From assembly GCF_034377285.1 (NCBI RefSeq), contig NZ_CP139715.1, positions 3,208,001 to 3,272,000 on the forward strand: DNA of 64,000 nucleotides. Direction: 5' to 3'. The notes beneath the pieces are model-generated. The model did no database searches. It was given only the letters and a program-made list of their open reading frames with translations, and had not been told where the DNA came from. Source of the DNA: Thalassobaculum sp. OXR-137 (GTDB taxonomy: Bacteria; Pseudomonadota; Alphaproteobacteria; Thalassobaculales; Thalassobaculaceae). Positions 3,424 to 55,765 of the stretch are shown here, piece after piece. Both the position numbers and the translations under genes were made by a program. How positions within the stretch are numbered: position 1 is the first letter of the stretch; each line of letters starts with the position of its first letter.

Positions 3424-6146
3424 TGCTCTCCGCCAATGTCGTCCTGGTCACCGCACTCGCCTATGTGGCGCTGCTGTTCATCGTGGCCTTCGTCAGCGAC
3501 CGCCGGGCCCGCGCCGGCCGGGTGGGTCTCGCCCATTCGCCGCTGATCTACACCCTGTCGATCTCGGTCTACTGCACGTCCTGGACCTTCTACGGCGCTG
3601 TCGGCTCGGCCGCCCGCGACGGGCTGGAGTTCGTGACGATCTATCTGGGGCCGACCCTGGTCTTCGTCGGCTGGTGGTTCGTGCTGCGCAAGCTGGTGCG
3701 GATCGGCCGGGTGCACCGGATCTCCTCGGTGGCGGACCTGGTCTCCTCGCGCTACGGCAAGAGCACCACCCTGGCGGTGCTGGTCACCGTCATCGCCGTG
3801 ATCGCCAGCACCCCCTACATCGCGCTCCAGCTCAAGGCGGTGACCATCAGCTTCTCGGTGGTCGGCAGCGCCGGCAACGAGGCGGTGATCGACGTCTCGA
3901 CCGCCTTCTGGGTGGCCGCCGGCATGGCCGCCTTCACCATCCTGTTCGGCACCCGCAACATCGACGCCAACGAGCGCCACCACGGGGTGGTCGCCGCCAT
4001 CGCGCTGGAGGCGCTGGTCAAGCTGATCGCCCTGCTGGCGGTCGGCATCTTCGTGGTCTTCGGCGTGGCCGGCGGGCTCGGCGAGGTCTTCGCCATGCCG
4101 GGGGCGAGCATCGTCATCGACCCGGACACGGTCTACGGCCCGCGCTGGGTGGCGATGACCTTCCTTGCCGGCACCGCCATCCTGTGCCTGCCGCGCCAGT
4201 TCCAGGTGACGGTGGTGGAGAACGCCGACGAGGCGCAGCTCCGCACCGCCTCCTGGCTGTTCCCGCTGTATCTCTTCCTGATGTGCTGCTCGATCCTGCC
4301 GATCGCCATCGCCGGGCTGACCCTGCTGCCGCCGGGGGCCAATCCGGACATGTTCGTGCTGACCCTGCCCATGGCCCAGGGCCAGGACGCGCTGGCGCTG
4401 CTCGCCTTCATCGGTGGCTTCTCCTCGGCGACGTCCATGGTGATCGTCGCCTGCATCGCCCTGTCGATCATGGTCTCCAACCACATCGTGATCCCGGTGG
4501 TGCTGCGCCTGCCGGTGCTCAGCCAGGCGGTCAGCGGCGACATGAAGCGGCTGCTGCTGGTCAGCCGGCGGGTCAGCATCGGCCTGCTGCTGCTGCTGGG
4601 CTTCGGCTATTTCGTCGCCAGCGCCCAGTCCGACGCGCTCGCCGCCATGGGCCTGATCGCCTTCGCCGGCGCCGCCCAGATCCTGCCGGCGATGGTCGGC
4701 GGCCTGTACTGGCGCTCGGCCTCCAAGGCCGGGGCGGCGGCCGGCATGTTCGCTGGCTTCGTTGTGTGGATCTACACGCTGGTGCTGCCGAATTTCGAGG
4801 GCGTCTGGTTCGTCACCCAGACCCTGATGGTCGAAGGCCCCTGGGGCCTCGGCTGGCTGCGGCCGCATGCGCTGTTCGGTGTCCAGGGCGAGGACCCCAT
4901 GGTCCATTCGGTGTTCTGGAGCATGACCGTCAACGTGGTCCTGTTCGTGGTCGTGTCGCTGATCCGCGAGCAGAACCCGCTGGAGCGGCTGCAGGGCACC
5001 CTGTTCGTCGACGTGTTCCGCAATCCGGCGGAGAGCGAGGGGCGGTTCATCACCCGCTCGGCGACGGTGGACGACCTCTACATCATGACCCAGCGGATCC
5101 TCGGCGCGGAGGAGGCGCAGCGGGTCTTCGCCGAGTTCGCCCAGCGCCAGGGGGCGGTCGGCGACATGCCGCGCCCGGACGCGGCCTTCATCTCCCATCT
5201 GGAACGGCTGCTCGCCGGCGGCATCGGCGCCGCCTCGGCCCGGGTGATGATCAGCCAGGTGGTGACCGGCGAGACCATCAGCCTGGACGAACTGATCCGG
5301 CTGGTCGATGAGACCCAGCAGGTGATCGAGTACTCCCAGCGCCTGGAGGCGAAGTCCCAGGAACTGCAGGACACCGCCAAGGCCCTGCAGGACGCCAACG
5401 AGCGGCTGCGGATGCTGGATGCCCAGAAGGACGATTTCCTCAGTCAGGTGAGCCACGAGGTGCGCACGCCGATGGCGTCGATCCGGTCGTTCTCGGAGAT
5501 CCTGCTCGACAACCCGGACCTGGAATCCGAACGCTCGCGCAAATACCTGAAGATCATCCAGGACGAGACCCTGCGCCTGTCGCGGCTGCTGGACGAGATC
5601 CTCGACGTCTCGCATCTGGACAGCGGTCAGTTCGCCCTGCGCCTGGAGGAGGTCGACGCGGCCCGCATCCTGGAACACGCGGTGGAGACCTGCCGCGGCA
5701 TGGCGGCCAGCGCCGGGGTGACCATCGACTACGGCGCCTGCGTCGCCGAGGCGCCGATCCGCGCCGACGGCGACCGGCTGGCCCAGGTCTTCATGAACAT
5801 CCTGTCGAACGCCATCAAGTACAACACCAGCGAGGAGCCGCGGGTGACCGTCAGCAGCCGGGTCGATGGCGGCACCTATTTCGCCTATGTGGACGACAAT
5901 GGGCCGGGCATCCCGGCGGAGGACCGGGAGCGGATCTTCGCCAAGTTCGCCCGCGGCCGGGAGCTGACCCCGGGCCACCGCACCGGGGCCGGGCTCGGCC
6001 TGTCGATCAGCCGCAGCATCGCCCGCATGCTCGGCGGCGACCTGGAACTGCTGCCGGAGCCCGGTCGGGGTATGGGGCGCGGCGGGGCGCGCTTCCGGCT
6101 GCGGCTGCCGTTGCGGCGGGAAACCGCAGCCGCGGCGGGTGAATAA
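3423..6146 (+). CDS. Sodium:solute symporter-histidine kinase hybrid (CbrA/CrbS-like)
   Basis: The 907-residue protein has about 13 membrane helices in an SSS (SLC5) transporter fold up to residue 515. A STAC-like segment follows (about 535-616) and then a short coiled coil (630-670). The HisKA domain carries the phosphorylated histidine H678 in SQVSHEVRTP. The HATPase has the N box NILSNAIKYN and the glycine boxes DDNGPGIP and TGAGLGLSIS near residue 855. No PAS domain is evident between STAC and HisKA, unlike CbrA. Relatives sense or import acetate, histidine and similar carbon sources. No DNA-binding partner is adjacent; the only receiver nearby is the stand-alone one upstream. The substrate is unknown. 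Confidence 0.9.
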   Translation: MLSANVVLVTALAYVALLFIVAFVSDRRARAGRVGLAHSPLIYTLSISVYCTSWTFYGAVGSAARDGLEFVTIYLGPTLVFVGWWFVLRKLVRIGRVHRISSVADLVSSRYGKSTTLAVLVTVIAVIASTPYIALQLKAVTISFSVVGSAGNEAVIDVSTAFWVAAGMAAFTILFGTRNIDANERHHGVVAAIALEALVKLIALLAVGIFVVFGVAGGLGEVFAMPGASIVIDPDTVYGPRWVAMTFLAGTAILCLPRQFQVTVVENADEAQLRTASWLFPLYLFLMCCSILPIAIAGLTLLPPGANPDMFVLTLPMAQGQDALALLAFIGGFSSATSMVIVACIALSIMVSNHIVIPVVLRLPVLSQAVSGDMKRLLLVSRRVSIGLLLLLGFGYFVASAQSDALAAMGLIAFAGAAQILPAMVGGLYWRSASKAGAAAGMFAGFVVWIYTLVLPNFEGVWFVTQTLMVEGPWGLGWLRPHALFGVQGEDPMVHSVFWSMTVNVVLFVVVSLIREQNPLERLQGTLFVDVFRNPAESEGRFITRSATVDDLYIMTQRILGAEEAQRVFAEFAQRQGAVGDMPRPDAAFISHLERLLAGGIGAASARVMISQVVTGETISLDELIRLVDETQQVIEYSQRLEAKSQELQDTAKALQDANERLRMLDAQKDDFLSQVSHEVRTPMASIRSFSEILLDNPDLESERSRKYLKIIQDETLRLSRLLDEILDVSHLDSGQFALRLEEVDAARILEHAVETCRGMAASAGVTIDYGACVAEAPIRADGDRLAQVFMNILSNAIKYNTSEEPRVTVSSRVDGGTYFAYVDDNGPGIPAEDRERIFAKFARGRELTPGHRTGAGLGLSISRSIARMLGGDLELLPEPGRGMGRGGARFRLRLPLRRETAAAAGE

Positions 6147-53775: not shown

Positions 53776-54051
53776 GCTGAGTGCTGGTCGTGTGACGCGG
53801 CGGGAATAGCGACGGCCGGGTCTTCCGATAACGGACGTTGGCGAAATATTGGCCGATGACTGGATGGCGGGCCTATTCGGACATTCGTGATTGTGTCGCA
53901 GCGTTCTGCTGTCGGCCGAATTTGGACTGTCTAGTTTCGCGATGCAGGTCCACGACAGGGGCTGTTCTGCGACTTTAGAGCGAGCCAAATGAGCGACACC
54001 ATCACGCTTGGCCCGCTGTGCAAGAAAATTTGCCACCCCCAAGATTACCAA
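53776..54051. other. Lower-GC gene-free segment at the left edge of the ParA insert
   Basis: This stretch has a visibly lower GC content than its left neighbour and no frame with coding features that I can support. It is followed directly by the promoter and dyad of the parA-like gene. It may be inserted DNA or a remnant. A 9-bp AATATTGGC at 53845-53853 recurs at 55687-55695 on the other side of the cassette. Confidence 0.5.
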
Positions 54052-54095
54052 TTGACTGTTTACGATGATCACAATAAATGTGTTCATCGTAAACA
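54052..54095 (+). promoter_or_regulatory. Promoter covered by a 39-bp dyad upstream of the parA-like gene
   Basis: TGTTTACGATGA (54057-54068) and TCATCGTAAACA (54084-54095) are perfect 12-bp inverted arms, with inner CACA/TGTG pairing around ATAAA. TTGACT at 54052-54057 and the AT-rich centre (ATAAAT, 54074-54079) form a sigma70-like promoter with a 16-bp spacer, so a bound protein would block it. Such dyads upstream of parA genes are typically autoregulatory operators and sometimes partition sites. Confidence 0.75.
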
Positions 54096-54110
54096 CGAGA
54101 GGTTGAGGCG

Positions 54111-55151
54111 TTGGACGAGCAAGAAGACCTAGTGGGAATTAATGAGATCGCGGCAATGGCAAAGGTCTCAAGGCAGGCGGTCGCCAACTGGCGAACCCGG
54201 TTTCGCGACTTTCCAACTCCGGTCGTTGAACTCGCTGCAGGCCCTGTTTTCAAAACCACCCAAGTCCGATCTTGGCTCAGAAGAAGGAAAGTACCCATGG
54301 CTCGAGTCGTATCTCTCATTAACCTTAAAGGCGGCGTCGCCAAGACGACTACCACTGTCGCACTCGCTGAAACGCTGGCAGCGCATTTTAGCAAGCGGGT
54401 GCTTGTCATCGATTTGGACCCTCAGACCAACGCTACCACGATCCTGATTGGTGAGAAGCGGTGGAAGGAGATCAATGGGATGGGCTGGACGCTGGCAACG
54501 TTGTTCAAGGACGCACTTGATCCGCAAAACAAGTCATTTGACCTGAAGAAGACGCTCCAAAAGGGGGTGTCGGACGTGCAGGGTGCCAAGACCGTCGACC
54601 TGCTACCGTCCAGCCTCGATCTAATCGACGTACAAGACAAACTAGCGAGCGCGCCGACGGGCCAGTTCTATTCGGTCACGCCGATTGACCTGTTGCGCCT
54701 GGCGGTGAAGCCAATTCTGGACGACTACGACATTGTTCTCGTCGACTGCCCGCCTAATCTTGGCATCATCACGTTAAACGGCCTGCGCATCTCCGAAGGC
54801 TACATCATCCCGACTGTGCCCGACGTTCTATCGACTTACGGTATCCCCCAGATCGTCACCCGTGTCGGCAACTTCTCGAAGGAGGTGGGGGAAGACATTG
54901 AGCCGCTGGGCATCGTCATCACCAAATACCAAGAGGCCAGCACCATCCACGTGAACGTATCCCGGGACCTGCGTCGCCGGGATGACCCCCCAGTCTTCGC
55001 CACCGTTGTCAGACAAGCCAACCAGATCGCCGCTGCTGCCGAGTGGCAGTCGGAACGCCGGACGCTTAAGCAGAAGTACGGGTATGGCGACCTCGCAACT
55101 CGCTACATCGACCTAGCGCAGGAACTCCTGACCCGACTGGACATGCAATGA
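54111..55151 (+). CDS. ParA-family ATPase with N-terminal helix-turn-helix
   Basis: The 346-residue protein starts at TTG after GAGAGGTTGAGGCG. Residues about 7-60 look like a MerR/excisionase-type helix-turn-helix (GINEIAAMAKVSRQAVANWR). The ATPase has deviant Walker A LKGGVAKTTT, Walker A' VIDLDPQTNAT and Walker B IVLVDCPPNLG, so it should be an ATP-dependent dimerising, DNA-binding ATPase. An internal AAGGA-ATG at 54297 could yield an ATPase without the DNA-binding part. Base composition is lower in GC than its neighbours. No parB is present; a small partner gene overlaps its stop. Confidence 0.9.
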   Translation: MDEQEDLVGINEIAAMAKVSRQAVANWRTRFRDFPTPVVELAAGPVFKTTQVRSWLRRRKVPMARVVSLINLKGGVAKTTTTVALAETLAAHFSKRVLVIDLDPQTNATTILIGEKRWKEINGMGWTLATLFKDALDPQNKSFDLKKTLQKGVSDVQGAKTVDLLPSSLDLIDVQDKLASAPTGQFYSVTPIDLLRLAVKPILDDYDIVLVDCPPNLGIITLNGLRISEGYIIPTVPDVLSTYGIPQIVTRVGNFSKEVGEDIEPLGIVITKYQEASTIHVNVSRDLRRRDDPPVFATVVRQANQIAAAAEWQSERRTLKQKYGYGDLATRYIDLAQELLTRLDMQ

Positions 55152-55543
55152 CGACCCTCAAGATACGGCTTTCAAGGCTCGCTGCCGCCATCGCCGAACA
55201 GGCGGCTCGCGATCCCGAGTTCGCGAAGAAAATCGAAGAGATCATGGGCGGTGACGGCATGACGAAACCCAAGAGCACGACGAGGAATCAGGGTGCCCGA
55301 AAGGGCGGCCGACGCACACCAGCATTGATCGACCCGGTAGCGATCGCCCAGTCAGGCCCCGAAACGCTTCGCAATGCGCTGCGCCCCCTCAATCTAGAGC
55401 AACTACTCGACATAGTGGCAGATTACGGCATGGATCCGGGAAAACTCGTCATGAAATGGAAAGACAGGGATCGCGTCGTCGACCGCATCGTCGAGGTCTC
55501 GATATCTCGCGCCTCCAAGGGCGACGCATTCAGATCCGAGTAA
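55148..55543 (+). CDS. Small partner protein of the ParA cassette, unknown function
   Basis: The 131-residue basic protein overlaps parA by four bases (ATGA), which indicates translational coupling. The N-terminal third is a helix (LSRLAAAIAEQAARDPEFAK), the middle is basic and disordered (TRNQGARKGGRRTP), and the C-terminal third (LNLEQLLDIVADYGMDPGKL and then MKWKDRDRVVDRIVE) resembles a short SAP/Rho-N-like helical nucleic-acid domain. I recall similar proteins beside ParA genes in alphaproteobacteria, but no function. It may be the centromere-binding or adaptor partner. Confidence 0.75.
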   Translation: MTTLKIRLSRLAAAIAEQAARDPEFAKKIEEIMGGDGMTKPKSTTRNQGARKGGRRTPALIDPVAIAQSGPETLRNALRPLNLEQLLDIVADYGMDPGKLVMKWKDRDRVVDRIVEVSISRASKGDAFRSE

Positions 55544-55568
55544 CAACCTCCCTGAAGAGACGCCCAAA

Positions 55569-55595
55569 CTTTGGAGCGTGGCGGTCGCTCCCAAG
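55569..55595 (+). terminator. Hairpin after the ParA cassette
   Basis: CTTTGGAGCG and CGCTCCCAAG pair over 10 bp with one G-T wobble around a 7-base loop, 25 bp after the stop of the partner gene. No T tract follows, so termination may be weak or Rho-assisted. The 222 bp up to the next gene hold nothing else that I can support. Confidence 0.4.
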
Positions 55596-55765
55596 CATTG
55601 TGGGTTAGTCCTTTGATTGGCCGCTCGACCAAGTCAGATTGCCGATGGGCGTTTTAGCCAACCATTATTGTTGCCTAGAACGACAGAATATTGGCACAGA
55701 GCAGCCATTTCGTGCTCGCCGCTTTATTCGTCACTCTGGGCTCTCAGGAGCCCCCCCCCAGCCCC

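Follow-up and report, generated by a model that had tools for sequence, protein, structure and literature searches.

The window analysed here is a 64,000-nucleotide stretch of the chromosome of Thalassobaculum sp. OXR-137 (contig NZ_CP139715.1, positions 3,208,001 to 3,272,000), and it contains a compact two-gene cassette within a block of low GC content. The features of the cassette, in window coordinates, are as follows:

53826-55754, no strand: low-GC inserted block containing the cassette, with ends set by alignment with a same-genus relative (G380)
54052-54080, plus strand: putative promoter, TTGACT (54052-54057), 17 bp, TAAATG (54075-54080), overlapped by the operator
54057-54095, no strand: operator dyad, in which 5 bp separate two quasi-palindromes of 17 bp, TGTTTACGATGATCACA and TGTGTTCATCGTAAACA
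54111-55151, plus strand: HTH-ParA ATPase gene, 346 aa, TTG start, with an N-terminal HTH (approximately residues 8-60) and a ParA/Soj P-loop domain (KGGVAKTTTT)
55148-55543, plus strand: partner gene, encoding a small basic protein of 131 aa with N-terminal helices, a variable basic linker and a C-terminal YGMDPGKLVMKWKD..RV.DRI region

Both open reading frames are as the original prediction described them. The TTG start at 54111 is preceded by GAGAGG, and the parA and partner ORFs share the sequence ATGA, giving a 4-bp overlap at 55148-55151. The GC content, which had been noted as lower than in both flanks, is 56.2% across 53826-55754 compared with 70.3% and 69.9% in the 5 kb on either side, making it the lowest among 621 sliding windows.

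Homology with G380 ends at 53825 and restarts at 55755, showing that the window carries a 1.93-kb foreign block. The site is empty in another genome of the same genus (G766), where the two flanking genes, one maleate-isomerase/racemase-like and the other convergent and amidinotransferase-like (both named by eye from their translations), are approximately 10 bp apart. The partner was found in none of the 35 other genomes of the order (36 were searched, including the source) and in four of 385 genomes of the class, one of these being a weak, interrupted match; absence of the cassette from the 35 genomes rules out a fixed syntenic locus of normal GC content. No terminal repeats or target-site duplication were found at the ends of the insert. 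We regard the 1.93-kb block as a recent insertion. At the same junction of convergent genes G380 has an unrelated low-GC insert of about 1.7 kb (L056:3640-5335, contig C27) that contains only small ORFs, and because a different insert sits there the site may be a hot spot for insertions.

The ParA protein matches Pfam family AAA_31 (3e-38), and its AlphaFold model matches Soj in Foldseek (E 3e-18), with McdA also among the matching folds. Its best phage family is PHROG 164, 'ParA-like partition protein' (8e-49), which covers only the ATPase part (profile 217-474) and has no counterpart for the partner. The deviant Walker A motif, KGGVAKTTTT, has lysines that are invariant in 20 homologues and conforms to the KGGxxK[ST] pattern of ParA/Soj P-loop ATPases. 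The HTH gave only a sub-threshold match to YdaS when searched against Pfam and NCBIfam. Because ParA has a dN of 0.06 with saturated dS relative to its nearest relative (L007), the gene pair is judged to be under purifying selection.

Searched against Pfam, NCBIfam, PADLOC and PHROGs, the partner gave no family above cut-off, and it matched no solved structure. Family searches revealed no ParB, RHH or HTH signature and the predicted structure has no RHH fold; there is likewise no toxin or antitoxin domain in Pfam or NCBIfam and no match to HicA_toxin. Searches with the pair gave no toxin, nuclease or membrane domain. Alignment of 21 partner homologues shows that the C-terminal stretch is near-invariant, and in the AlphaFold model (pLDDT 70) this stretch falls within a helical C-terminal region, which follows helices at residues 3-21 and 23-32 and a disordered basic linker. 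The SAP-like C-terminus of the original prediction is plausible but weakly supported: the sole structural lead and best Foldseek match is the SAP-domain protein DEK of humans (1.8 Å rmsd over 49 columns, probability 0.54, E 4.7), and a distant partner (L090) weakly matches SAP_new25 (E 0.049). Weak matches of the partner C-terminus to bacHORMA_2/HORMA (best E 0.0055, about 30 residues) involved members that are all mutually homologous and were rejected as unproven. Among the partner homologues, several gave such hits to the bacterial HORMA_2 profile with E values of 0.005-0.1, spanning about 30 profile residues and possibly arising by chance.

The dyad 5' of parA is real, but its arms, originally given as 12 bp, are 17 bp in length (54057-54073 and 54079-54095), 16/17 complementary and separated by 5 bp. 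The 17-mer motif has a chance expectation of 0.01 per window, and in the entire 5.65-Mb genome there is one double site. Nearly all main-clade loci have two such 17-mers (TGTnnACnnnGTnnACA) 5' of parA, usually 5-6 bp apart (two helical turns). As for conservation of the dyad, which the original prediction had singled out as a check, at least one site scoring 9/10 is present at all 30 HTH-bearing loci, whereas none of nine HTH-less relatives has one (the best there scoring 7/10). Seven held-out loci (L080-L086, ParA 44-62% identical) were not used in deriving the motif, and all seven are positive; two of these (L081 and L082) keep the sites with the spacing changed to about 31 bp centre to centre. 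The site thus appears to be tied to the ParA HTH domain, and because sites lie at the promoter and precede all of the HTH-bearing but none of the HTH-less relatives, autoregulation of the operon by the ParA HTH is very probable.

In most relatives a TTGACA-like -35 box lies 12-13 bp 5' of the left site, whose end gives a TAAACA or TACACA -10 box; in the window and in L007 the register of the -35 box is 5 bp from the left 17-mer. Transcription was originally proposed to start within the dyad, and the TTGACT-17-TAAATG arrangement does overlap the left arm; however, a stricter consensus promoter scan gave no site at the window dyad. No Rfam element was found.

The 17-mer motif alone is not diagnostic, and a motif-first scan of viral contigs re-found known loci together with phages that have no ParA (L061, L062, L063, L065, L066 and L067). 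One of these phages (L062:7542-7622) has four tandem 17-bp palindromes, TGTGAACnnnGTTCACA, spaced at 21-22 bp within the coding region of an HTH protein gene. The HTH protein resembles an O-type replication initiator, the half-site of the palindromes is the same as that of the ParA operator, and the array is possibly an origin. A perfect dyad with 17-bp arms and the same operator pattern lies 3' of a small-terminase-like gene in L063 (4528-4566; also in L061, L065 and L066) with ParA absent nearby, and may be a terminator hairpin or the operator of another protein.

The two genes are consistently found together. A partner-first search recovered 13 relatives in genome contigs and 11 in viral contigs, with ParA immediately 5' of all of them apart from three: the contigs of L019 and L029 stop before ParA would be reached, and L010 has a truncated ParA. 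Wherever both ends are readable, the partner is coupled to ParA, a point that the original prediction had proposed to check. A ParA-first search gave a corresponding result, with a partner of 125-168 aa directly 3' of each relative that is at least 43% identical. ParA and partner distances are correlated (Mantel r 0.90 for 26 loci, falling to 0.58 when only the 19 closest are taken; equalled in 0/5000 permutations), and the two proteins evidently have co-evolved. A neighbourhood comparison of the loci revealed no third gene conserved beside the pair.

The hosts include Rhodobacterales, Sphingomonadales, Hyphomicrobiales, Citrifermentans and one Acidobacteriaceae genome. Because the Citrifermentans and Acidobacteriaceae ParAs are 76-78% identical to the window ParA, horizontal transfer is indicated, and by these comparisons the two genes travel together, through at least three bacterial phyla and between phages, plasmids, islands and chromosomes. 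Order-level searches around the other carriers gave no additional copies, and a search of plasmids and phages for relatives of the Caballeronia and L039 partners returned only the Caballeronia record itself. Three viral contigs (L087, L088 and L090, with ParA at 4001) encode HTH-less ParAs that are 34-43% identical and have unrelated-looking partners of about 125-127 aa directly 3'. Because these ParAs too have small downstream partners, units made of ParA and a small partner may form a wider superfamily in viral contigs.

Several copies are embedded among prophage late genes. The pair follows head-protease fusion and head decoration genes in L030 and lies between the terminase gene and a ParB-methyltransferase gene in L028, and in L034 and L037 it runs antisense to the portal, head and tail genes around it; tyrosine integrases are close to the pair in L027 and L033. 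The copies in L030, L034 and L037 have their own promoter and operator and lie among phage genes, as expected of prophage morons. The window copy lies outside any recognised prophage and is solitary, as is that of L016, which sits between priA and an aconitase-family gene.

Other copies have neighbours of the types found in restriction and defence loci: Z1 and a C5 methylase (L012), Fic (L011), an SNF2/PLD helicase (L025) and an IrrE-like peptidase (L014). The L025 helicase and the DUF1156 and DUF3780 matches are probably one system, and the L014 peptidase is the likely source of the PD-Lambda-5_B, capP and beta matches. Some loci, among them L009, L018 and that of the window, have no obvious defence neighbour. 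Searched with PADLOC at 1e-15, 75 neighbour ORFs from 11 loci match 64 families compared with one family among 52 window control ORFs, with many of the 64 falling on few ORFs and the control being one unmatched region; this defence-gene neighbourhood is suggestive. The matching control ORF, which is outside the cassette, hits the mads_3 model (E 1.1e-22). No member of the pair matches a PADLOC 2.0.0 system model over its full length; there are short matches to PDC-M28B (a candidate whose E of 2e-7 covers only about 50 residues of the P-loop region), PDC-M06B and a type I methyltransferase, and the partner matches nothing.

Plasmid copies are rare, with a close relative in only four of 72,556 plasmid records. 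One is the Methylocystis plasmid pSS37A-Re-4, which has its own complete repABC and on which the pair is beside a T4SS and a multiubiquitin/E2/ThiF operon. This operon (multiubiquitin/E2/ThiF/DUF6527; noted at L024:8469-9142, close to the pair) is a bacterial ubiquitin-like conjugation cluster.

The contexts point to a conflict function, whether defence, superinfection exclusion or growth arrest. Because copies are found in phage late-gene clusters, by integrases, by restriction and defence genes, or alone, we tentatively read the pair as an autoregulated, nucleoid-acting conflict/moron module of mobile elements, an interpretation to which we give not quite an even chance. The ParA HTH head would bind the two 17-bp sites over the operon promoter and repress synthesis of ParA itself, a step strongly supported by sequence comparison. 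As in the ParA family generally, ATP-bound ParA dimers would coat the nucleoid, and the partner, a basic protein that probably binds DNA via its SAP-like C-terminal domain, would control ParA ATPase turnover or recruit a target. Judging from its locations, the pair would not segregate its resident replicon but would act as moron or island cargo in conflicts between mobile elements, and a disturbed ParA-partner balance would stop or penalise a competing phage or plasmid, or arrest the host cell, in the manner of ParA-Shi of ICEclc. It is possible, if doubtful, that the pair is an undescribed form of mobile-element immunity in which the self-repressing ParA and its DNA-binding partner monitor the nucleoid, with a disturbed ParA-partner pattern on foreign DNA that is entering or replicating triggering growth arrest or exclusion. 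The original prediction had left three options, a plasmid-derived partition module, positioning of another cargo and a defence-type module; a defence or conflict role suits the contexts best, and plasmid-derived partition is unsupported. Its description of the unit as self-contained and mobile agrees with these data, and the libraries searched contain no description of the unit.

One rival to the conflict module is a compact system for partition or stability, with the partner as a centromere-binding protein and the dyad serving both as operator and as centromere in the manner of type Ib systems. Such a system would stabilise prophages, islands or plasmids while they are extrachromosomal, leaving the solitary chromosomal copies as relics. 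The ParA fold and signature are indeed those of partition ATPases, the operator with its repeated sites lies 5' of the operon, a few plasmids carry the pair, and a relaxase-like gene has been found next to it. However, the partner lacks the RHH, ParB and HTH signatures expected of a centromere-binding protein, the single operator has two sites and no iterons, and purifying selection on the pair would not be expected of relics. Partition of the resident replicon is doubtful because copies are solitary, are carried as morons in prophage late operons or between chromosomal housekeeping genes where nothing needs partition, are rare on plasmids, and in Methylocystis stand alongside repABC; we therefore consider the partition explanation unlikely.

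Alternatively, the pair could be a functional analogue of ParA-Shi with which an element holds its host cell in growth or division arrest while the element itself transfers or is induced, instead of resisting other elements. Carriage by prophages, plasmids and islands would suit this role, as would a layout like that of ICEclc parA-shi, in which an overlapping small partner acts without ParB (PMC6812849). We think it rather improbable, since the partner is neither Shi-like nor HicA-like (it has no Pfam match, and is 131 rather than about 85 aa), the pair is not attached to one ICE family and has no alpA or parB alongside, and the solitary copies have no element to serve. Positioning of a non-DNA cargo, as by McdAB, would make the partner an adaptor to a protein encoded elsewhere, and would agree with the small partner, its variable linker and the ParA fold match to McdA; but with no conserved third gene, a patchy distribution in the class and contexts that are mobile elements, this seems very improbable.

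ParA genes are routinely annotated as encoding partition proteins, yet the ParA branch described here, which has its own operator and a partner without a name, is hardly ever found on plasmids needing partition. If the pair is a conflict module, it would add a nucleoid-reading ATPase to the immune or moron repertoire, and searches with the partner family could bring many more copies to light. Having an operator and a coupled two-gene unit, the system can be tested directly.

We found no description of this pair in openly licensed papers on ParA morons or ParA defence, and comparison with known systems shows partial resemblances. As in type Ia systems (P1 ParA, F SopA and RepABC RepA), an N-terminal HTH is present on the ParA ATPase, and the type Ia HTH binds an operator in its own promoter. 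However, the HTH arm here is much shorter (about 60 aa), there is no ParB/RepB, parS or replication gene, and the pair is not associated with replicons; the partner has no ParB match, and the window copy is chromosomal and without a rep gene. Type Ib systems (ParF-ParG and delta-omega) share the small downstream partner gene and the operator 5' of parA, but in the pair described here ParA carries an HTH and the partner is not a ribbon-helix-helix protein. A distant relative (L091, 26% identity) is a likely type Ib unit, with a 91-aa RHH-like partner and repeated TACACATA elements.

In ICEclc, ParA and the small partner Shi arrest division from the nucleoid and membrane without ParB (PMC6812849). 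Shi is encoded by 258 bp (about 85 aa) and is HicA-like; its gene is flanked by parA and parB, in a conserved ICE operon that begins with alpA (PMC6812849). The pair in the window differs in that an HTH is fused to ParA, the 131-aa partner is unrelated to Shi, and there is neither a parB nor a fixed element. Nonetheless, in both the gene for a ParA-family ATPase overlaps that of a small downstream partner without any database domain, and like ParA-Shi the pair is carried by mobile elements, would act without ParB and has diverged from plasmid and chromosome ParAs (PMC6812849). By analogy, ParA-Shi of ICEclc is the closest studied counterpart of the pair.
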